Positions 2,338 through 31,006 of a DNA stretch of 32,480 nt are shown here, piece after piece. Made by a program: the position numbers and the translations under genes. Positions within the stretch are counted from its first letter, which is position 1. Each line of letters starts with the position of its first letter. Below the pieces are notes generated by a model. The model saw only the letters and a list, made by a program, of their open reading frames with translations, ran no database searches and had not been told where the DNA came from. The DNA is from a virus, in IMG/VR virus record IMGVR_UViG_3300029999_000018, positions 1 through 32,480 of that record. One strand, 5' to 3'.

Positions 2338-5300
2338 TCAGGACACGCCGATCATCGCCGAGGCCTTCATCAGCATGGCCTGCTGCATTTCAGGGGACGG
2401 ATATTGGGGTCCGAAGAACTGGATGTTCACGCCCGCACCCGTGCCGCCCACGCCGGGGGTGACCGTTTCGGGGCCGTTCTCTCCGAAGTGGTACCGGTCC
2501 CCTGAGTGCATCCCGATCCCGGCGACCGGTTCGGGGATAATCCCCCCATTCCGGTACCAATGGTCGGCCTGTTCATGAGCCCAGGCCGCTTCCGGGTCGT
2601 TATAGCGCTGTTTTATATAATTGACCATGGCTACTGCCTGGCCCGCTGCGGTGCTTGAGTTGCCGCCGTACTGGGCGTATTCGCTCGCGCCGTTGATGAA
2701 CTGGGCGAGGCCGTATGCGCCGGAACCGGGGTTTTGGGCGGTGAGGCTGAATCCGGCCTCGGCCATCTCAACGTTGTAGAGCGCCTGCCATTGTGCCCCC
2801 GTCCAGCCTGCCTTGGCGGCTGCCGATTGGAGGGCAGCCTCGGCTGAACTGTTCGCGACGCCTGCGGTGCCGATCCCACCGCCCGACGCTGCGGCTGCCG
2901 CCGCGGATGCTTTCGCTGCGGCAGCAGCGGTGTTGATGGCCTTTTCCAGTTCCGTTTCCATGCCGGTGACGGTGGAGTTGTACTCATTCGTCGTCCACGT
3001 GCCCATCCCGGCGGGGGTGCCGCTGTAGTCCCCGCTGGCGAGGCCACCGGATGCGAATCCGGGCGCTTTGATGTGCCGCAGGTGGGCGAGGTGCTCTTCG
3101 TGCTGGTGGTGCAGGTGCTTGACGTGTGCGAGGTGTTCCTCATGCTGGTGGTGCAAATGTTCGAGGTGGTCGACGTGCGCGACATGCTTCTGGTGGGCGG
3201 CCACGATGGGATGGGCTACCGCCTTCGCGGCTGGCTGCGCGATGTGCGCGGAGGGATGAACGGCTGCTGTTCCCGGCAGTTCCCCCTCATGCCGCAGGTG
3301 GGTGAGATGCTCCTCGTGCTCATGGTGCAGATGCTCAAGGTGCTCGACATGCCTGGCGTGCTGGTGGTGCAGGTGTTCCAGGTGCGCGACGTGCTTCTGG
3401 TGGGCGTCCAGCGGGCCTTTGGCGCTGCCGCCTGCCGCGAACCTTTTCGCATTGACCTGGTCGAAGAACCCGGTGCCGTAGTGCTTGACCGCGTCGGCCT
3501 GAACCACGTACTCGTTGTGGGACAGCAGCGCGGGAATGTCGTCAGCTTTCGGCCGCCCGGAACCCCCGGCGATCAGGCCACCGGCGGCCTGCCCGGACGG
3601 TGTCGGCAGGATCCCGCCCTTGCCGCTTGTCTTGGTGAGGGCTTCCTGGATGCTCCATGTGCCCGTGGCGGCCTCAGTGAGACTCAGCGCCTTGCTGGCG
3701 GGAACGTTCGTGATCGCCGTGCCCAGCATGCTTACACCACGGGTCAGCCCCGCGACCGGCCCGTTCGTGGACGAAGTCATCGCCGCGTTGCCGGTGGCGA
3801 TGTTCTGCGGCATGGTGGTGCCGACCGCGAAACTGAAACCTGCCGTTTTGCCGGTCGTGTCCAGTAGTGCCTGCTGCAGGTTGGCGGCGTGGGGGCTACC
3901 CAGGGTGTCCAGCTTCTGGCCGGCGGTCTGGAGATTCGCCGGCAGCGTGGTGCCCACCGCGAAACCGAGAGTCCCCGTTTTGCCTGACGTGTTCGTCATC
4001 GCCTGCTGCAGGTTGGACAGATGCGGGGTACCCAGGGTGTCGGCGGCGCCCCCGGTGGTTTTGAACGTCCCGCTCAGCGCGTTCATCTGACTGATGGCCT
4101 GAGCTGGGCTTTCACCGATCGCGATCAGGTCGTTGTACAGCACGGTGTAGGAAGGGCTTGCGTTAGCGTTCGCCACCCCGGTGTTGTGCACAGCCGTGGC
4201 ATAGTTGTTCATCGCACCCTGAATGCCGACCGCAGCCCCGATCGCCTTGCTCATGTCGGCGGTCAGGTCCTGCTGGAGCGCGGTCGCAAGGTTCTGCGCG
4301 TCGATGCTCAGGTTCGACATGGCCGTAGCGGCGTTGTTGGTGTCTTTCTGCAGCCCGGTCATGCCCTGGCTGGCGGTGACCCCGGCCCATTTCTGGAGGG
4401 TCTGCAGGTTGGTGGTGGCCGGGCCGCCGGCTTCCTGCGCCAGCGCCGAGATCTGGGCGGCGGCTTCCTTGTTGGTCCCGGCCAGCGGGATCAGCACGGC
4501 CACCGTGTCCTTGATCGCCTTGACTTGCTGGTCGGCGGGCGCCTGGCTGGTCCGCATCGCGTCGAACAACTGCTCGGCGGAGCTGTAGCTGGACTGGAAA
4601 TCTTGCTGGAGCTGGATGGATGCGGTGGTGACCTTCTTGCTCATGGAGACAGCGCCGTCGCCAAGCCCGGACATCTGCGCCCCGGACGCCTTCGCGTCGT
4701 TGCCGAAGGTGACGATTGACTGCGCGAAGGTCAGGAACGTGCTGACCGGGGCCGCAACGTTCTTGGTGAACGTGTCCCACGCGCTGTTGAGGTTGCTGAT
4801 CGCTTTCAGCTGATCGGACGCCGCGTACGTCACGGCGGACACGTCGTTGCCGATCTGGCCCATACCCTGGCCCATGTTCGCGTACCCGGTGATCACACCC
4901 TGTATCTTCTGCATGGCCGTGTCCCAGGTTTTGTTCTGGGTGGTGGTCATGTCGGAGACCTTGAGTCCCGCGAAATTGGCGAGCGCATACGCGCCGGGCA
5001 GTGACGTGCCGAAGGTGGACGCGATCTGGTCGGCGTGCGTGACGGTGCTGCCCAGTTCCTGGTTCAGCAGGGCATGGTTGGCGGTCAGCGCCTGCGCGTC
5101 ATGCGAACCCTGCACCAGGCCCAGGAAACTGCCGGTCTGAGCGGTGGTCAGATTGTCGGTCGCGGTGGCGAGCTTCTGGTTGGTGGCAACCAGCTGGGCC
5201 GCTTCAGTGTTGACGAGGCTGTAGATGCTGGCGTTCTGCACCGCTTTCTGGCTGGCGGTGACCCACTGATCGGTGGCGTCCTTCGCCCTGCTCATCCAGA

Positions 5301-6957
5301 TGGCAAACGCTGTGATCGCGATGACACCCGTCGCGATCACAGCCACCCACGGGTTGTCCCCAATGAAGCCGAGGGCCTCGCCGAGCTTCCCGCCGGCACC
5401 GGATGCGGTGACCAGCCGGTCTCCCAGCGAACCCGCCGCGCCCGACGAGTTGACCAGAGCCGACCCGATCCCCCCGATCTTGACGGCCAGCCCGCCGATA
5501 CCCGTAGCCATCCCCACCAGGGCCGTGCCGATTTTCGTCACCACGGTGACCGCCAGGCCACCCCAGAGATACAGGCCGTGCATGGCCAGCCCGGCGATCA
5601 GCAGCGGCGCCGGGAGTTTGGTGATCCAGTCGAGCAGCTGCGCCGCCGCACCCACCACCGCCAGCAGATCTTCCGCGATATGCGTGACCTCGGCGGCTTT
5701 AAGCAGGTTCGCGAAAGCGTTCCCCAGCGACACCAGGACGCCGCCGAACATGGCCAGGTCTTTCTGCCCCTCCGTCAGGAACGTGTTCAGCGCACTGCCG
5801 CCGGTCGTCATGTCCACGACGATCCGGGCACCGAACGTGTCCAGCACACCGCCGGTCTTGACCGCCAGCGAGCCCATACTGCCGAACTTTGAGTTGACCG
5901 CATCGATCGCGTCGCCGAACAGGCCCCACACTTCCGGCCGGATCGCGGTGGTCAGGTCGTTGAGGCTGTGCGTGAGGAACGGCATCGCCGTGCCGGTCGC
6001 CTGGCTTACCGTGTACAGGGCGCGCACGTGCTCGACAAGATCCCCGGCGGGGTCTCCCGCCGCGATGCTGGCCAGTGCGAACTCACCCAGACCGAGCGCC
6101 GCCGCGCCCAGGGCCGGGACCGCGACCGCCCCGAACTCGATCACCGTGTCGAGGAGCAGATGCCATACGGGGACACTCATGCCGGCAGCCCCGGCGAACA
6201 GGGGGATCTCCCTGGTGAGCAGCCCCATCCAGCCGTAGGCGCGGTGCGCCGCCTCACCGGCATTGTCTGTCGCGGTCGCCAGGCCATTCGTGGCGACTGT
6301 CGCCGCAGCGATCACCCCTGTGTCCGCGTCGAACGAAAGCCTTACCTTGTCACCCGCCGACAGTACGTCCAGCGTCGCCTTGATTGCTTCGTTCGCCGCG
6401 ACCACGCTGGCCAGATCCGCTTTCGCGCCGACCTCAACCAGATCGGTCCCGCCGGCCGTGAGCCCAGCCCGGATCTCAGTGTCCGCCTTCGCGATGCTCG
6501 CCGGGTCCACGCCAACCTCAACGGGGACCGTCTCGGCCGTAAGCCCAGCCCGGATCTCAGCGTTTACTTTCGCGATGCTCGCCAGGTCGACACCGACCTC
6601 GATCGGTGCTGTCTCGCCGCCCAGGACCCCCAGTTCCGCTCGGGCTTTCGCGATACTGGCCGGGTCGACGTCGAACTGGACGGGGGCCGTGTCGCCGCCC
6701 AGCAGCCCCATGGCTGCACGGGCCTTCGCTATGGACGCATCATCAACGTTGAACTGGACGGGGATGGTCGCGTCGCCGAACGCGCCCAGCGCCGCCCGGA
6801 CCTTCGCTATCGACGCATCATCAACGTTGAACTGGACGGGGATGGTCGCGTCGCCGGCTGCGCGGGTTTCGGCGTCGATCTTGGCTTTCAGCTCGTCGCC
6901 AAAATTACTGATGTCGGGGGTCACGCTTATGCGTGCGCTGCCTATCAGCAGAGACAT
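2338..6957 (-). CDS. tape measure protein with C-terminal lysozyme-like domain
   Basis: At 1539 residues this is the longest gene; it sets tail length and sits between the tail chaperones and distal tail gene. Residues about 25-185 hold about six copies of a ~28-residue repeat (PVQFNVDDASIAKARAA type). Hydrophobic stretches near 240-300 and 540-560 are candidate membrane segments. A second ~42-residue repeat (NLQQA...AVGTT) lies around 990-1080. Residues about 1180-1296 are an extreme His-rich heptad region (HLEHLHHQHEEHLAHL). Residues about 1375-1462 look like a lytic transglycosylase/lysozyme-type domain (NVEMAEAGF, then NPGSGAYGLAQF with a downstream YG and WY), common in actinophage tape measures and expected to cut peptidoglycan at entry. 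The extreme C-terminus is Gly-rich. The start ATG has AAGGGGG upstream. Confidence 0.93.
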   Translation of the reverse strand: MSLLIGSARISVTPDISNFGDELKAKIDAETRAAGDATIPVQFNVDDASIAKVRAALGAFGDATIPVQFNVDDASIAKARAAMGLLGGDTAPVQFDVDPASIAKARAELGVLGGETAPIEVGVDLASIAKVNAEIRAGLTAETVPVEVGVDPASIAKADTEIRAGLTAGGTDLVEVGAKADLASVVAANEAIKATLDVLSAGDKVRLSFDADTGVIAAATVATNGLATATDNAGEAAHRAYGWMGLLTREIPLFAGAAGMSVPVWHLLLDTVIEFGAVAVPALGAAALGLGEFALASIAAGDPAGDLVEHVRALYTVSQATGTAMPFLTHSLNDLTTAIRPEVWGLFGDAIDAVNSKFGSMGSLAVKTGGVLDTFGARIVVDMTTGGSALNTFLTEGQKDLAMFGGVLVSLGNAFANLLKAAEVTHIAEDLLAVVGAAAQLLDWITKLPAPLLIAGLAMHGLYLWGGLAVTVVTKIGTALVGMATGIGGLAVKIGGIGSALVNSSGAAGSLGDRLVTASGAGGKLGEALGFIGDNPWVAVIATGVIAITAFAIWMSRAKDATDQWVTASQKAVQNASIYSLVNTEAAQLVATNQKLATATDNLTTAQTGSFLGLVQGSHDAQALTANHALLNQELGSTVTHADQIASTFGTSLPGAYALANFAGLKVSDMTTTQNKTWDTAMQKIQGVITGYANMGQGMGQIGNDVSAVTYAASDQLKAISNLNSAWDTFTKNVAAPVSTFLTFAQSIVTFGNDAKASGAQMSGLGDGAVSMSKKVTTASIQLQQDFQSSYSSAEQLFDAMRTSQAPADQQVKAIKDTVAVLIPLAGTNKEAAAQISALAQEAGGPATTNLQTLQKWAGVTASQGMTGLQKDTNNAATAMSNLSIDAQNLATALQQDLTADMSKAIGAAVGIQGAMNNYATAVHNTGVANANASPSYTVLYNDLIAIGESPAQAISQMNALSGTFKTTGGAADTLGTPHLSNLQQAMTNTSGKTGTLGFAVGTTLPANLQTAGQKLDTLGSPHAANLQQALLDTTGKTAGFSFAVGTTMPQNIATGNAAMTSSTNGPVAGLTRGVSMLGTAITNVPASKALSLTEAATGTWSIQEALTKTSGKGGILPTPSGQAAGGLIAGGSGRPKADDIPALLSHNEYVVQADAVKHYGTGFFDQVNAKRFAAGGSAKGPLDAHQKHVAHLEHLHHQHARHVEHLEHLHHEHEEHLTHLRHEGELPGTAAVHPSAHIAQPAAKAVAHPIVAAHQKHVAHVDHLEHLHHQHEEHLAHVKHLHHQHEEHLAHLRHIKAPGFASGGLASGDYSGTPAGMGTWTTNEYNSTVTGMETELEKAINTAAAAAKASAAAAAASGGGIGTAGVANSSAEAALQSAAAKAGWTGAQWQALYNVEMAEAGFSLTAQNPGSGAYGLAQFINGASEYAQYGGNSSTAAGQAVAMVNYIKQRYNDPEAAWAHEQADHWYRNGGIIPEPVAGIGMHSGDRYHFGENGPETVTPGVGGTGAGVNIQFFGPQYPSPEMQQAMLMKASAMIGVS

Positions 6958-7078: not shown

Positions 7079-7744
7079 ATGGCAGACAGTGAGAAGCAGC
7101 GCGCCTACCAGCGCGAATGGCAGGCGAAGAACCCCGACAAGGTGCAGGCGTACTCAGAAAAGTACCGCGAGGCTAACCGCGACGAGATCAACGCCCGGAA
7201 CCGGGAACGCTACGCGGCCAATCGCGAGAAGTTCCTCGCCAAGAACCGCACCTACCGGGATGGGAATCGCGACAAGGTTCTCGCATATCAGCGTGAGTAC
7301 AATGCGGTTAACCACGACAAGAAGCACGCGAAGGCCACCGAGTACTATTGGGCGAACCGTGAAAAGGAAATCAACCGGGGCCGCAAGTACAACGCCATAC
7401 CGGGTCACCGCCGCGCCGTCCAGATGCGCTACCACCACGGCATGGAGGCCGACGAGTGGGCGGCACTCCTAGATGCACAAGACGGCTGCTGCTACCTGTG
7501 CGGCTGCCTGCTCGATCCAGACGGCCGCGTCTGCATTGATCACGACCATGGATGCTGCCCAAAGAACCGGTCGTGCCGGATCTGCCGACGTGGCCTTACC
7601 TGCTCGCCATGCAACGTCGCGATCGGCATGGCTGACGATGACCCCGCACTGCTACGCCTGATCGCGGACAACCTTGAGGCCGCCCTTGCTGCGGTACGGG
7701 CGCGAATGAATGAGCGGTCAGTGCAGTTGGAGTTCGACGTCTAG
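7079..7744 (+). CDS. free-standing HNH / recombination endonuclease VII-family protein
   Basis: The 221-residue product starts MADSEKQRAYQREWQ. Residues 5-105 are about seven Arg/Lys/Asn-rich repeats of roughly 11-14 residues (YREANRDEINARNRERY), a likely helical DNA-binding arm. The catalytic half has CYLC (138-141), IDHDH (153-157), CRIC (166-169) and CSPCN (175-179), the zinc-bound His-Me finger layout of the endonuclease VII family, ending ADDDPALL...A..LE. It probably nicks or cuts DNA as a homing-type enzyme. It lies antisense between tail chaperone and tape measure; both neighbours look intact, so it is intergenic rather than in an intron or intein. Its TAG overlaps the chaperone stop in a shared CTAG (7741-7744). 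A paralog is at 28608. Confidence 0.9.
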   Translation: MADSEKQRAYQREWQAKNPDKVQAYSEKYREANRDEINARNRERYAANREKFLAKNRTYRDGNRDKVLAYQREYNAVNHDKKHAKATEYYWANREKEINRGRKYNAIPGHRRAVQMRYHHGMEADEWAALLDAQDGCCYLCGCLLDPDGRVCIDHDHGCCPKNRSCRICRRGLTCSPCNVAIGMADDDPALLRLIADNLEAALAAVRARMNERSVQLEFDV

Positions 7745-10285: not shown

Positions 10286-10655
10286 TCCGGTCCAGCTCAA
10301 TCTGAACCATGGAAATACCGGACCACGGGGAAATGATCAGCCCCGGGTCACCGTCAGGCAGCCACTCCTGCCCATTGATCAGCACCTGATCCGTCACCGC
10401 AAAATCGATCCCCGCCGGCGCGAACATCGTGTACCCGGTCGCCACCGAGAACTCGCCTTCCAGGTTCTCCCCGAACCCGCCGGGCCTGGTTGCCCGCGGC
10501 GGCCGTTTCAGCAGCAGCGGCATCAGGATCACCTGCACGTCCTGCGTGCTGATGATCCCGTACACGTCGTCACCGTACTCATCGGTGCCGGTGACACCCT
10601 GCTTCTGGATGGTGACGGTCTGCGCGAACGGCCAGTTATCGAACTGGATGCTCAC
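10275..10655 (-). CDS. head closure (stopper) protein
   Basis: The GTG at 10655 overlaps the upstream stop as GTGA and gives 126 residues (MSIQFDNWPFAQTVTIQKQG). A longer upstream frame reads as out-of-frame translation of the adaptor gene and is rejected. The mixed beta pattern with DVQVILMPLLLKRPP and GQEWLPDGDPGLI resembles SPP1 gp16-like head-closure proteins, which seal the portal channel after packaging. Position between adaptor and gp10-like genes supports this. Confidence 0.8.
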   Translation of the reverse strand: MSIQFDNWPFAQTVTIQKQGVTGTDEYGDDVYGIISTQDVQVILMPLLLKRPPRATRPGGFGENLEGEFSVATGYTMFAPAGIDFAVTDQVLINGQEWLPDGDPGLIISPWSGISMVQIELDRITG

Positions 10656-11290
10656 CGCAGCCTCGACTGCAAGGTGCGGACGTTCCGGCGGTAATCCTTC
10701 AGCAACTCCAGGTCCGCCTGCGTAAGCGCGACTTTCACCCCGCCGCCGGCGGCTTCCATCCGGTAGGAGTACGGGCCGATCGTCTCCCCCACCACACCCG
10801 CCGCCACCGTCGGGGACGTCAGCACCGACAGGGCCGCGTTCGCCGCGACCATCGTCACAATGTCCGGGATGTAATCCCAGCCATAGTTGTAGGTGACCCG
10901 GAACGTCCCCGGATACGAGTCGGAATCCTCGATCCATGACTCGGGGAGGTTGATGATCCCCCAGTGCCCCGGGTGGATCCGGATGATCCCCACCCCGTCG
11001 AACGTGAACCAGGTGATGTTCACATCCGGGAGCATCATGCCCCCGCCGATCGCCACCACCGTACTCACCGAGTTCACCGGGCGGCGGGGCAGCTCGATCT
11101 CACTGTCATGCCCGTAGAGGATTTCGGTGATGTCCTGGTCGGCGGTGAAAGCGTTCCGGCAGTACCGGCGGATCTGCGCGCTCGCATCCTGCAGCAGCGG
11201 GTAGGCGCGGGTTTCCTCGCTGGCGGTGAGGGGGCGGCCGAGGCGGGCGGACAGGTCCGTGGTGGAGGCAAGCGGCGGCAGGTAACCCAT
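10652..11290 (-). CDS. head-tail adaptor protein
   Basis: The 212-residue product starts MGYLPPLASTTDLSARLGRP. An N-terminal helix pair (TDLSARLGRPLTASEETRAY, then LLQDASAQIRRYC) followed by a beta-rich middle (RRPVNSVSTVV) is typical of HK97 gp6/SPP1 gp15-like connector proteins that bind under the portal. The ATG has GGGGGTGA upstream. A short helical tail (ADLELLKDYRRNVRTLQSRL) is at the end. It is the first gene after the capsid gene in late order, apart from an antisense two-gene insert. Confidence 0.85.
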   Translation of the reverse strand: MGYLPPLASTTDLSARLGRPLTASEETRAYPLLQDASAQIRRYCRNAFTADQDITEILYGHDSEIELPRRPVNSVSTVVAIGGGMMLPDVNITWFTFDGVGIIRIHPGHWGIINLPESWIEDSDSYPGTFRVTYNYGWDYIPDIVTMVAANAALSVLTSPTVAAGVVGETIGPYSYRMEAAGGGVKVALTQADLELLKDYRRNVRTLQSRLR

Positions 11291-11312: not shown

Positions 11313-11341
11313 TTGACTTAAGGCTAGAGGATGCTTAAGCT
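11313..11341 (+). promoter_or_regulatory. promoter of the Phd-like gene, with CTTAAG repeats
   Basis: TTGACT (11313-11318), a 17-base spacer and TAAGCT (11336-11341) make the best sigma-70-type promoter in the window. The -10 ends six bases before the ATG. The palindrome CTTAAG occurs at 11317-11322 and 11334-11339, overlapping both boxes. Phd-type proteins usually repress their own promoters, so these are candidate operators. Confidence 0.75.
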
Positions 11342-11347
11342 TGCTGG

Positions 11348-11545
11348 ATGAGTGAGCAAGAGATCGGCATCGAGCAAGCACGCGGCCAGCTCGGGCCACT
11401 AGCCATCGCCGCCGCGACAGAAGGCCAGATCACCTACCTGACCTCACACGGCCACCGGGTCGCCGCGATCGTCCCGCTCGGGCTAGTCACCAACCAGCCG
11501 GCCGAACAGCCCGCGGCGAGAAACCCCCGGAGAGCAGAGAAGTGA
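11348..11545 (+). CDS. Phd/YefM-like antitoxin
   Basis: The 65-residue product starts MSEQEIGIEQARGQLGPLAI. The pattern 'IGIEQARGQLGPLAxxAxxxGQxxYLTxHGxRVAAIVPL' is that of the N-terminal DNA-binding and dimer domain of prevent-host-death antitoxins. The C-terminal 20 residues are Pro/Ala/Arg-rich and short for a toxin-wrapping tail. The gene is antisense between the adaptor and major capsid genes, has its own promoter with palindromic sites, and overlaps the next gene by a GTGA. It could be a true antitoxin or only a Phd-fold regulator. Confidence 0.8.
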   Translation: MSEQEIGIEQARGQLGPLAIAAATEGQITYLTSHGHRVAAIVPLGLVTNQPAEQPAARNPRRAEK

Positions 11546-11781
11546 GCGACAACCTGAACACCCTGCGCGCCCAGCTCGCCGAACTGGAACGCCAAGTAGA
11601 GGTCGCCAAGCAAGCCAAGGCGAGCAACTGGGAAGACGCGCTAGACGGCCTCTACAACGCACTGAACGAGTACATCGACCACGAGACCCTGCCTAACGGC
11701 TATCTCTCCGGGAAACACGGCGTGAACGTCTCTACCCTGCATCGGCTGCTCGTCAGGAAGACGTGGCAGCACGTGGCCTGA
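11542..11781 (+). CDS. unknown protein coupled to the Phd-like gene
   Basis: The 79-residue product starts at GTG (MSDNLNTLRAQLAELERQVE). Residues 5-30 form a clear coiled coil with Leu/Val heptads; the rest (NALNEYIDHETLPNGYLSGK, then STLHRLLVRKTWQHVA) looks helical and weakly like a winged helix. It is not a recognisable RelE, ParE, Doc or PIN toxin. The four-base overlap with the Phd-like gene and the terminator right behind make a two-gene operon laid out like a toxin-antitoxin pair, so a new toxin or co-regulator is possible. Confidence 0.7.
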   Translation: MSDNLNTLRAQLAELERQVEVAKQAKASNWEDALDGLYNALNEYIDHETLPNGYLSGKHGVNVSTLHRLLVRKTWQHVA

Positions 11782-11788
11782 CCGGACA

Positions 11789-11826
11789 GTAAGGGGCGGC
11801 CGGGCCGCGATCCGGCCGCCCTTTAC
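11789..11826. terminator. bidirectional hairpin terminator
   Basis: A 15-pair stem (11789-11803 with 11812-11826; one G-T wobble) and an eight-base loop sits exactly between the convergent stops of the 11542 gene (+) and the major capsid gene (-). Neither side has a strong U-run, as is common in high-GC actinobacteria. On the minus strand it would act on late RNA just after the capsid gene. Confidence 0.75.
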
Positions 11827-11834
11827 TGCGTTTG

Positions 11835-12848
11835 TCAGGTCGCGACCAGCCCAAACGGGAACCGCGAGCTGATGCTCTTGTTGGGCTGCATTATAGTCAC
11901 GGGGTTTGCAACACTGTACGCCAGCCGCAACACGAGCCTCATAGCTACCGCGTCCTGCTGCATGAGGTTAAGAACTACGCCGCCCGAGTCGTTGGAGATG
12001 ACACCTTCGGTGAACAGCTTGAACGAGATGTCCTGGCGGATGCCGATGATGGCCTTACTCCAGTCGCCGGCGATCACCTGTGCTTTGGTGCCGTCCCAGC
12101 TCCCGTTGTCGATCATGCGGAGGGGGTACCCGTAGAGGGCTCCCTGGGCGGGCTGGTTCCATGATGCCTGGCCGCCGGCGTTCTGCATGTCGGGCTCATA
12201 GATGGGGATGCCCTGGGCGGACCGGAGGCCGATGAGCCGCCAGTTGAGGCCGGGGCGGGCGGCGAACCCGTTGACGGTGTACCCGGTCTGCGCCATGGAG
12301 TCGCCGAGGGAGGCCACGGACTGGCCGAAGTCGGCGGCGGCGAGGGTGCCCGCAGCGTCGGTGTAACCGTCTTTGACGGTGTTCCCCGCAGCGACGGCGG
12401 CGGTGTAGATGTCGGTGCCCCAGGTGGTGGGCTTCCCGTACCCCCAGAGGACCGCCTGGTCGATGAGGTTCCCGGCCGCCTCAACCATCCGGGGCTGCAC
12501 TTCATTCCAGATGGGCACGTCAGCGTCGTCGAGGTACGCCTCGGGGATGGGCAGGATGGTGGCGAGTTCCTCCACCACCAGCGTGACGTTCTTCCATGCC
12601 TGGGAGCCGGTCTGCTTCATGCCGACGTCTTCGCCGGGCGTCGACTGGGACACCCAGTAGGCAACCGGCAGAACGTCGAGGACGGGCAGCCGCTGAGTCT
12701 TAGCGGACAGGGTGGTGCGGCGCATCAGGGACAGGGCCGCGGATGCCTTGGGGAGTTCCTGGATGATCTCGGCGGAGAGGGGTTCGGGGACGAGGGCGTC
12801 GGATGTGCCCGCCGCGGCCCGGAAAACGCCAGAGTTGTAAGTGGCCAC
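11835..12848 (-). CDS. major capsid protein, HK97 fold
   Basis: The 337-residue product starts at GTG (MATYNSGVFRAAAGTSDALV) with AAAGGAG upstream. It carries the hallmarks of the HK97-type shell protein: an N-terminal arm, EIIQELPKASAALSLMRRTT, the E-loop-like region with PVAYWVSQSTPGEDV, and a long P-domain helix region (MVEAAGNLIDQAVLWG). The C-terminal strand ends IMQPNKSISSRFPFG. It follows the scaffold gene in late order. Length is a little short of HK97 gp5 because scaffold is separate. Confidence 0.93.
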   Translation of the reverse strand: MATYNSGVFRAAAGTSDALVPEPLSAEIIQELPKASAALSLMRRTTLSAKTQRLPVLDVLPVAYWVSQSTPGEDVGMKQTGSQAWKNVTLVVEELATILPIPEAYLDDADVPIWNEVQPRMVEAAGNLIDQAVLWGYGKPTTWGTDIYTAAVAAGNTVKDGYTDAAGTLAAADFGQSVASLGDSMAQTGYTVNGFAARPGLNWRLIGLRSAQGIPIYEPDMQNAGGQASWNQPAQGALYGYPLRMIDNGSWDGTKAQVIAGDWSKAIIGIRQDISFKLFTEGVISNDSGGVVLNLMQQDAVAMRLVLRLAYSVANPVTIMQPNKSISSRFPFGLVAT

Positions 12849-14171: not shown

Positions 14172-14861
14172 CTAAAACATGCCGATGGAGCCGCCGGCGC
14201 TGCCCGCCGCCGCACCGCCGCGGAACCCGGCACGCAGGTACACGGCACCCGTCCCGGTGTAGCCGGTGAGGACCGCATTGAACGCCCGGTACGTGGACCC
14301 GGGGTTGAACCACACCGCTGAGCAGCGCAGCCCGCCGGTGAACGTGAGGATCGGCGTGAACGTGGATGCGTCCGGGGAGCCGTTGACGGTGATCGTCGCG
14401 GCGGTCACCGTCGGATCGCAGGTCATCATCGCGTCGACCCGGGTTTTCGTGGCCCCGGCGCCGAAGTCCTGGGTGGTGCCGGTCTGGTTCGCGGACAGCG
14501 GCGCCGCACCGCTTGAGGATGGCGGGGCGGTGAGGGTCAGCGCCGTCCCGATCGCCGTCGGGGAACCGGAGCCCTGCTGCCGGGTGAACGTGGTCCCGCC
14601 CACCTGGGTGACATAGGCGTACCAGCCGCCGGTCGCGGACGGCACCGAGATCGGTGAGGGGATCGTGATCGTTGACGTGGACCCGGTGGTGGTGACCGGC
14701 CCGTTCACCGACGCGACCGTCTCCCCGCTCGCGGTCACATAGGAGACCACCACCCCGTACACGCCGGCGAGGACCGTCCCGCCGGTTGTGGCGGTGGTGG
14801 GGACGGGGGCTGCGGGCGGCAGGCCGTTGACCACCGTGTTCAGCAGCAGAGTGTCGGTCAA
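14172..14861 (-). CDS. two-domain structural protein (Ig-like plus decoration domain)
   Basis: With a TTG at 14861 (AAAGGGCGG eight bases upstream) the product has 229 residues starting MTDTLLLNTVVNGLPPAAPV. A GTG at 14897 would add 12 residues and overlap the previous gene by 32 bases. Residues about 25-125 (GGTVLAGVYGVVVSYVTASG, later GWYAYVTQVGGTTFTRQQ) are about three-quarters identical by eye to part of the 30335 product and look like a fibronectin/Ig-type fold. The C-terminal 90 residues are the same decoration-type domain as the 13833 product. A surface role on the head is likely but not shown. Confidence 0.72.
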   Translation of the reverse strand: MTDTLLLNTVVNGLPPAAPVPTTATTGGTVLAGVYGVVVSYVTASGETVASVNGPVTTTGSTSTITIPSPISVPSATGGWYAYVTQVGGTTFTRQQGSGSPTAIGTALTLTAPPSSSGAAPLSANQTGTTQDFGAGATKTRVDAMMTCDPTVTAATITVNGSPDASTFTPILTFTGGLRCSAVWFNPGSTYRAFNAVLTGYTGTGAVYLRAGFRGGAAAGSAGGSIGMF

Positions 14862-28607: not shown

Positions 28608-29336
28608 ATGACCGAGGATACGCCGGCAACCGGCAACGCCGATGCCCGCGAACGTGCCCGCGAATCTGAGCGCAAGTACCGCGAGGCTAACCGCGAAGAG
28701 ATCAACGCACGTCGACGACGCTCCAGGGGCGCGAATCCCGAGCCGAAACGGGAACAGGACCGGCGCTACCGTAAGGAAAACCAGGACAAGCTCCAGGCTT
28801 ACCGTGAGGCTAACCGTGAGCGGAAAGCGGAACTTAACCGGGAATACCGCGCCGCCAACCGCGACCGCATCCGGAAGCGCAGGGCCGGCCGACAGCGCGA
28901 GTACTACCAACAGGCCAAGCTTGACCCTGACTTTATGCAACGGCAGCGTGAGGCGCAGCGGAAGTACCGCACAGCCAACCGTAAGACTGTGAGGATCCTC
29001 GAGCGGCTTCGGAAGCACGGGCTTACGCCGGACGGGTGGAGTGCTCTATGGGCAGCAGCAGATGGCCGGTGCTACTTGTGTCAGCGCGAACTCAGGCCAG
29101 ACGAGGCGGTAATCGAGCACGACCATCGATGCTGCCCGGAACACACCTCTTGCGGTGCCTGCCGCCGGGGGTTCGCCTGCGGTAGCTGCAACGCCGCAAT
29201 TGGTTTCGCTGACGACGATCCAGAGCGCCTGATGCTGATGGCGGCCAACCTGCGCACCGCAATCGATGCGGTGGCCGAACGCATGAGCGCCCGGCCCGTG
29301 CAAGGCACCCTGTTTAGTCCTGGCGATGCAGCCTGA
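28608..29336 (+). CDS. free-standing HNH / recombination endonuclease VII-family protein, paralog
   Basis: The 242-residue product starts MTEDTPATGNADARERARES. Residues 20-125 hold Arg/Asn/Glu-rich repeats (YREANREEINARRRR, YREANRERKAELNREY) like those in the 7079 product. The catalytic part has CYLC (155-158), IEHDH (169-173), CGAC (182-185) and CGSCN (191-195), then ADDDPERLML. The first catalytic-region residue is Glu where the paralog has Asp. It lies between the early block terminator and the convergent 29338 gene with one base between stops, antisense to late genes, and is probably a mobile intergenic endonuclease. Confidence 0.9.
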   Translation: MTEDTPATGNADARERARESERKYREANREEINARRRRSRGANPEPKREQDRRYRKENQDKLQAYREANRERKAELNREYRAANRDRIRKRRAGRQREYYQQAKLDPDFMQRQREAQRKYRTANRKTVRILERLRKHGLTPDGWSALWAAADGRCYLCQRELRPDEAVIEHDHRCCPEHTSCGACRRGFACGSCNAAIGFADDDPERLMLMAANLRTAIDAVAERMSARPVQGTLFSPGDAA

Positions 29337-30335: not shown

Positions 30336-31006
30336 CAGACGGGCTCGATCACTTTGAGCTTGACCATCGCCGTGCCCGCTGGTGCGGCGGCACCACCCGA
30401 GCTCGGTGGCGCGGTCAGGGTCAGGTTTGTGCCCAGTGCGGTCGGTGCGCCCGCCACCTGCTGCCGGGTGAACGTGGTCCCGCCCGCCTGCGTCACGTAG
30501 GCGTACCAGCCGTTTGCGTCGGTCACCGATGGCGGGGATGGGATCGTGATCGTCGACGTCGTACCCGACGTGGTCACTGGGCCGTTCACGGAGGCGACCG
30601 TTTCCCCGTACAGGTTCACGTACGTGACCTCCACCCCGTACACACCCGCCAGGACCGTCCCGCCCGTTCCCGCGGTCGTGGGCGCGGGGACAACGGGCGG
30701 GAGAAGCGCCGAATCCACACCGACCTGCAGCTGTGAGCCGAACACGGCCGTGGAAAAATCCGTGTACCACCATTTGGCGGCCGCCGGGGCCAGCACGCGC
30801 TCATGTTTCACCGCCAGGCCCTGCTCTGTCAGCATGGTCTTAAACGTCACCCAATGGGCGGCGCTGTCGGTGTTGTCGACCAGGATGAGCGTCCCCCCGG
30901 TGTTGTTGAACACGTTGCCGTTGACCGGGTCTATGGCCACCTCGGCGGGGTCGGCTACACCGGCGATCCCGTTGGTTGTGGTGCTGGCGATCACAGTTGG
31001 CGCCAT
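30335..31006 (-). CDS. structural protein with Ig-like domain
   Basis: The ATG at 31006 (AAAGGA seven bases upstream) gives 223 residues, MAPTVIASTTTNGIAGVADP; a GTG at 31012 is too close to that site. The N-terminal 95 residues (NTGGTLILVDNTDSAAHWVT, then AKWWYTDFSTAVFGSQLQVG) look like a small phage head-surface domain. Residues about 105-205 repeat the domain of the 14172 product nearly intact. The shared domain suggests both sit on the particle surface. Confidence 0.72.
   Translation of the reverse strand: MAPTVIASTTTNGIAGVADPAEVAIDPVNGNVFNNTGGTLILVDNTDSAAHWVTFKTMLTEQGLAVKHERVLAPAAAKWWYTDFSTAVFGSQLQVGVDSALLPPVVPAPTTAGTGGTVLAGVYGVEVTYVNLYGETVASVNGPVTTSGTTSTITIPSPPSVTDANGWYAYVTQAGGTTFTRQQVAGAPTALGTNLTLTAPPSSGGAAAPAGTAMVKLKVIEPV

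Follow-up and report, generated by a model that had tools for sequence, protein, structure and literature searches.

A two-gene operon between the capsid and adaptor genes

The window (the whole stretch of DNA that was analyzed) is 32,480 bp long and comprises the entire IMG/VR record of a soil phage. Its - strand carries a siphophage structural module, with genes for the terminase, portal, head maturation protease, scaffold, major capsid protein, head-tail adaptor, and tail. Inside the 544-bp gap between the end of the capsid gene (11835) and the start of the adaptor gene (11290), a two-gene operon runs on the + strand, antisense to the module. From left to right, the features of the locus are:

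10652-11290, - strand: flanking gene for the head-tail adaptor (phrog_442, 1.2e-21)
11313-11341, + strand: promoter, with -35 box TTGACT (11313-11318), a 17-nt spacer, and -10 box TAAGCT (11336-11341); score 8/12
11317-11322, no strand: upstream CTTAAG box over the -35 box, at position -31 from the ATG (-23 or -24 in relatives)
11334-11339, no strand: downstream CTTAAG box over the -10 box, at position -14 from the ATG (the same position in most relatives)
11348-11545, + strand: ORF1, 65 amino acids, a predicted DNA-binding protein of the Phd/YefM fold (from profile and model), apparently without the C-terminal toxin-binding helix
11542-11781, + strand: ORF2, 79 amino acids, GTG start, with a putative short coiled coil and a C-terminal helix-turn-helix-like end; no independent homolog
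11554-11607, + strand: ORF2 residues 5-22, a predicted coiled coil with heptad positions L5, L8, L12, L15, V19, and A22 (helix 3-24 in a low-confidence model)
11704-11778, + strand: ORF2 residues 55-79, resembling the C termini of NUMOD4-HNH endonucleases from sister phages (11/25 identical)
11787-11828, no strand: bidirectional terminator hairpin with an 18-bp stem, separating ORF2 (+) from the capsid gene (-)
11835-12848, - strand: flanking gene for the major capsid protein (phrog_10, 2.4e-38)

An earlier note on this DNA had described a four-base overlap between the two genes, and this is present: ORF1 (11348-11545) and ORF2 (11542-11781) share the bases GTGA. The GC content by codon position is coding-like in both (0.71/0.52/0.77 in ORF1 and 0.66/0.35/0.82 in ORF2; the capsid gene has 0.62/0.48/0.87).

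For comparison, we fetched 80 relatives of the capsid protein. One of these contigs (L003) comes from the virus of the window itself, with 100% identity over 5,641 bp, and so does not count as independent. In the closest independent capsid relatives, the capsid and adaptor genes are separated by 51 bp (L004) or 54 bp (L005), versus 544 bp in the window. In other close relatives, large gaps at this position are mostly filled with + strand ORFs that resemble minor structural genes, and we found no relatives of ORF1 or ORF2 in the capsid-adaptor gaps of close capsid relatives. The operon is an insertion between genes that are adjacent in relatives.

The ORFs that fill this gap in two of the relatives (L006 and L008) share a protein motif with a segment that the window carries at 30457-30703 and at about 14573-14822. 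These two stretches are 79% identical in DNA and belong to two distant structural-type genes (as seen through L003).

The accessory (moron) loci of prophages have been reported to have such a layout, in which an antisense unit carries a promoter of its own (PMC7067206). Like phage morons, the operon is an extra transcription unit between genes that are neighbors in relatives; it is antisense to late genes, is absent from close relatives, and has its own promoter and terminator, with an operator that is conserved in relatives and a hairpin that is shared with the capsid gene. The comparison with morons is one of layout, and expression in the prophage state and an advantage for the host lie outside it. 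No integrase or repressor was recognized among the window proteins that we searched.

The hairpin at 11787-11828 is predicted to be stable on either strand (-36.8 kcal/mol, z = -5.1; opposite strand, -34.1 kcal/mol, z = -5.2). The operon had been said to have its own terminator. The hairpin is real, but it is not clear that it belongs exclusively to the operon, because it folds on both strands, lies 3' of the convergent capsid gene as well, and lacks a proper T-run. Since a strong hairpin lies directly 3' of the capsid gene in at least two sister phages (L010 and L033), this one may originally have been part of the capsid gene.

The proteins encoded by ORF1 and ORF2

On its own, ORF1 matched Phd/YefM models at E values that did not pass the cut-offs (0.024 in Pfam and 0.012 in NCBIfam), and single-sequence scans of viral and genome contigs gave no match. 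With tblastn against plasmids, we found relatives in Streptomyces, the best of which is 64% identical over 44 residues (E = 1e-7). An alignment of six sequences, including these plasmid relatives, led to further relatives in viral and genome contigs, and a 20-sequence profile that includes ORF1 matched Phd of phage P1 in a search against the PDB (6e-7). The structure model of ORF1, built from this alignment, has a pLDDT of 82 (above 90 over most of residues 1-45), with a beta-alpha-alpha-beta-beta arrangement. Its best neighbors in the PDB are RelB2, RelB1, VapB46, YefM, and Phd, all with a probability of 1.00 and, as the chain is small, with Foldseek E values of at least 0.009.

Judging by the profile and the model, ORF1 is a member of the Phd/YefM fold superfamily, so "Phd-like," as the protein had been described, is the right term. 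It has the predicted N-terminal DNA-binding fold of the superfamily, and the CTTAAG pair gives it the paired palindromic operator over its own promoter. Residues 46-65 are disordered in the model, and this segment is shorter and richer in proline than in toxin-paired relatives, whose long tail after the Phd fold is absent from ORF1. The segment might conceivably still fold upon binding.

The earlier note had described the second protein as not a known toxin fold. In searches of Pfam, NCBIfam, and PADLOC, no toxin family matched ORF2. (A Pfam match to flagellar FlgK_D1, with an E value of 0.0037 that did not pass the cut-off, was set aside as a coiled-coil artifact.) The protein had also been called a coiled coil; this fits residues 5-22 but not the rest. 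Structure prediction for the 79-residue protein alone, which the earlier note had proposed, gave a helix at residues 3-24, but the model is of low confidence (pLDDT 59) and a structure search with it returned nothing usable.

At its C-terminal end, ORF2 resembles phage endonucleases. Residues 55-79, with a net charge of +4, align with the C-terminal 25 residues of a NUMOD4-HNH_3 endonuclease from a sister phage (L007), with 11 of 25 residues identical and 20 of 25 similar (E = 3e-6 for the pair). An HNH protein from another sister phage (L082) has the same end, and both proteins were confirmed as NUMOD4-HNH. ORF2 and these two proteins all end in ...RKTW(Q/R)HVA-stop. There is also a weak match to gp7.7 of phage T7, which is annotated as an HNH endonuclease in some records. 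What these proteins have in common with ORF2 is a C-terminal, helix-turn-helix-like end of 25-38 residues; residues 1-54 of ORF2 are unlike HNH proteins, and Pfam finds neither an HNH nor a NUMOD4 domain in it. We read the shared end as a helix-turn-helix-like DNA-binding end, with the qualification that no helix-turn-helix model matches ORF2 and that the likeness to HNH proteins spans only 25 residues. Given this resemblance of its final 25 residues to the C termini of NUMOD4-HNH proteins, ORF2 is probably a small DNA-binding protein. The endonuclease genes themselves lie directly after the head-tail adaptor gene in the sister phages (L007, 8107-8760; L082, 1839-2447).

In viral contigs, ORF2 was found in L003, which is the same virus and 100% identical, and nowhere else. 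Searches of phages, plasmids, and 297 genomes gave insignificant or marginal matches, with no clear full-length relative. ORF2 is known from one virus only.

The CTTAAG operator and related loci

The two CTTAAG palindromes that had been reported over the promoter boxes are indeed there, starting at 11317 (overlapping TTGACT) and at 11334 (overlapping TAAGCT). CTTAAG occurs three times in the 32,480 bp (at 11317, 11334, and 16749). If these sites were placed at random, the probability that two of the three would fall no more than 35 bp ahead of the ATG is about 7.5e-6, and the chance of a site at exactly -14 is 7.8e-5. The promoter contains no TGTACA-type operator. This had also been called the best promoter of the window, which we could not establish: 17 sites tie at 8/12 under consensus scoring, and a stricter scan lists none here. 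Given the tie with 16 other sites, the label rests on the operator and not on the hexamers. Since the -10 box ends 6 nt before the ATG of ORF1, the mRNA of the operon is probably leaderless, with its start at 11348. TAAGGT-N6-ATG (N7 in one case) recurs in related CTTAAG loci. The two boxes are 17 bp apart in the window versus 9 bp in the other CTTAAG loci, and the window carries CTTAAGCT where those loci have CTTAAGGT.

We tabulated 33 Phd-like loci and scored CTTAAG within 60 bp upstream of the gene. Thirteen of them (including the window) have CTTAAG, mostly at -14 and -23 from the ATG. None of these 13 has TGTAC or GTACA within 60 bp upstream, and none has a Doc-type or RelE/ParE-type toxin gene downstream. 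Among the 20 other loci, 18 have TGTAC or GTACA, and 14 have a toxin of the Doc or RelE/ParE type (five of the downstream toxins were confirmed by Pfam as ParE_toxin or Fic). The chance that all fourteen toxins would fall outside the thirteen CTTAAG loci is about 5e-5, although the loci are related, so this overstates the strength of the association. A phylogenetic tree groups the window with the CTTAAG loci, weakly (0.77). By these sequence features, ORF1 is one of an actinobacterial set of "CTTAAG-box" Phd-like genes, from plasmids, phages, and chromosomes, without a recognizable toxin. Several plasmid records annotate such genes as "type II toxin-antitoxin system Phd/YefM family antitoxin"; the annotated Phd/YefM antitoxins in this set have no recognizable toxin and have a different operator.

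The set includes Phd-like genes from phage-plasmids and plasmids of Streptomyces (pCQ4 from Streptomyces sp. W75, pSP90, CP042280, and others), which are 45-64% identical to ORF1 over the N-terminal 45 residues. They share with ORF1 the placement of the CTTAAG boxes in the promoter, the leaderless start, and the lack of a recognizable toxin. They differ in being 70-110 residues longer at the C terminus and in the genes that follow them, among which there is no relative of ORF2, and some are divergent from a tyrosine integrase gene.

In three of these loci (L084, L085, and L094, from Streptomyces plasmids, one of them pCQ4), the CTTAAG-box phd gene adjoins the divergent tyrosine integrase gene; in L087, the integrase gene is one to two genes further off. 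The CTTAAG boxes in the integrase-adjacent plasmid loci might also control the integrase. SpdA2 of pIJ101 and the sps palindrome looked similar and were rejected: the paper that describes them mentions neither Phd/YefM nor CTTAAG. Our search of the literature on Streptomyces phages and repressors gave no relevant paper with CTTAAG operators.

The operator and promoter can also be searched for without the protein. The pattern CTTA-N5-CTTAAGGT-N5..7-ATG has 3 matches in 393 Streptomyces genomes, and a variant with N5..8 has 3 matches in 201 Streptosporangiales genomes. All six precede a Phd-like gene, and three of the six loci (L131, L255, and L256) were missed by the protein search. The reversed pattern has 3 matches in the Streptomyces set and none in the Streptosporangiales set. 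Of the tests, this operator-alone search is the strongest. In viral contigs, the bare pattern CTTAAG-N3-CTTAAGGT lacks specificity (none of its 135 sites lies ahead of a Phd-like gene), so the rule is limited to high-GC genomes of actinobacteria and to the complete promoter geometry. The pattern with the wider spacing of the window has one site, which is unrelated. In high-GC actinobacterial genomes, then, the promoter pattern finds such genes by itself, and so tells regulators apart from real antitoxins with no need for laboratory work.

The exact tandem pair of CTTAAG boxes occurs in four phage or plasmid records besides the window, once per record and at the phd-like gene. This favors autoregulation over a regulon, and we rejected a phage-wide CTTAAG regulon on these grounds.

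The genes downstream of CTTAAG-box phd genes are unlike each other. They encode proteins of 45 to 110 residues, of which some are apparently coiled coils and one is, in our reading, probably a winged helix; in other cases there is no such gene. Many members of the set instead carry 50-160 extra C-terminal residues, and several of the CTTAAG-box relatives of ORF1 are solitary. Beside at least 12 close relatives of ORF1 with the same operator, we found no relative of ORF2 (best phmmer E = 0.13), nor is there a Doc or RelE/ParE toxin. Because the partners are unlike and none resembles ORF2, the pairing of ORF1 and ORF2 is, at the level of sequence, not conserved. Conserved co-occurrence of both genes, as in type II toxin-antitoxin systems, is thus lacking, and the toxin-antitoxin reading that the earlier note had offered fares poorly by the homolog comparison that it had suggested. 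Its alternative of a regulator pair is supported by the conserved Phd fold and CTTAAG operator and by the DNA-binding-type motif at the end of ORF2.

Some solitary Phd-like proteins have long C-terminal extensions (L097, 2492-3283; L098, 2492-3088; L256, 1525-2211). The first two are from viral contigs and have TGTAC boxes, and the third has CTTAAG; on visual inspection, L098 and L256 have similar extensions. Two other solitary Phd-like genes, with GTACA boxes, lie immediately upstream of an apparent gene for the urease gamma subunit (L118, 2492-2800; L122, 2492-2776).

Comparison with known systems and possible functions

TGTACA is the known core of the YefM and Axe operators, in pairs that are 12 bp apart with one over the -10 box (PMC7730913, PMC4803016). 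The operon in the window shares with YefM-YoeB and Axe-Txe the DNA-binding fold, a pair of short palindromes that overlie the promoter boxes, with one at -10, and the arrangement of a short operon in which the fold protein comes first and a small second gene follows. The principle of a short-palindrome operator is therefore kept, but the hexamer and the spacing differ (CTTAAG, with 17 bp in the window and 9 bp in relatives, rather than TGTACA with 12). Furthermore, the operon has no YoeB/RelE-type toxin, and ORF1 appears to have no toxin-binding tail. Similarly, ORF1 is a phage-borne Phd-fold protein like Phd of phage P1, which the profile including ORF1 matches, but the operon has no Doc/Fic protein, ORF1 is shorter and apparently lacks the Doc-binding helix, and the operator differs. 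Because the two defining features of YefM-YoeB and Phd-Doc for which we tested, a TGTACA-type operator and a neighboring toxin gene of the Doc, RelE, or ParE type, are both absent, the operon should not be filed as either system. The operon is real and is unlikely to be an ordinary toxin-antitoxin pair.

Starting from the fold, the operator and its conservation, the layout, and the insertion, all established computationally, we propose that this is an autorepressed phage moron in which ORF1 is the repressor and ORF2 is cargo or a co-regulator, and not a Phd-Doc or YefM-YoeB pair. We give this explanation a probability of roughly 0.6. By analogy with YefM and Phd, we infer that a dimer of ORF1 would bind each CTTAAG box. 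Bound ORF1 would cover the -35 and -10 boxes, block RNA polymerase, and so keep the leaderless transcript at a low level. ORF2 would be made in step with ORF1 and would probably act on DNA, most likely as an accessory regulator or as a co-repressor together with ORF1. Toxins play the latter part in toxin-antitoxin operons.

A more tentative idea is that a DNA-binding Phd head, which stays constant and has its own operator, is combined with an exchangeable effector, which is either fused to its C terminus or encoded by the next gene, and that ORF2 is one such effector. The CTTAAG-box genes would then be a separate class of self-regulating expression cassettes in actinobacterial mobile elements, and ORF2 would possibly be a toxin or anti-phage protein of a new kind whose end binds DNA. 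If this is true, then the variable partners and extensions of these genes are a list of candidate effector proteins of phages and plasmids.

It is unlikely that the operon is a genuine type II toxin-antitoxin module whose toxin, ORF2, has a new fold and would be neutralized by ORF1, which would also repress the operon. The antitoxin-first order, the autoregulatory operator, and the location in a phage would suit such a module, and a 4-bp overlap with a small, co-transcribed second gene is typical of toxin-antitoxin operons. The fold of ORF1 does occur in antitoxins, and one antitoxin family can pair with unlike toxins. However, the genes that follow the CTTAAG-box relatives differ from one another or are missing, the C-terminal helix with which Phd and YefM bind toxins is apparently lacking in ORF1, and ORF2 does not match the toxin families of Pfam, NCBIfam, or PADLOC.

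We consider it quite improbable that ORF2 acts on other phages in the lysogen, as a superinfection-exclusion or anti-phage moron whose level is set by ORF1. There is no PADLOC match, and no integrase or repressor was recognized among the window proteins searched, even though a promoter antisense to the late genes is the layout of accessory (moron) loci (PMC7067206) and close relatives lack the operon. Finally, ORF2 is very unlikely to be the functionless remnant of a decayed NUMOD4-HNH homing endonuclease that was captured behind a Phd-like gene: the stretch of 25 residues at its C terminus stops at precisely the same point as the HNH proteins of L007 and L082, and their genes are located just after the adaptor gene, but residues 1-54 are unlike those proteins, and ORF2 keeps a coding-type GC3 (0.82), an overlapping start, and the heptad pattern.

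Elsewhere in the window, two genes of the recombination endonuclease VII type lie on the + strand at 7079-7744 and 28608-29336 (Pfam, 5e-12 and 3e-13), the first of them on the strand opposite to the tail genes. Both have long N-terminal repeats that resemble YREANRDE/YAANREK. The tape measure gene (2338-6957, - strand) contains a long run of repeats rich in His, Glu, and Leu at about 3070-3500 (HLEHLHHQHARHVEHLEHLHHEHEEHLTHL).
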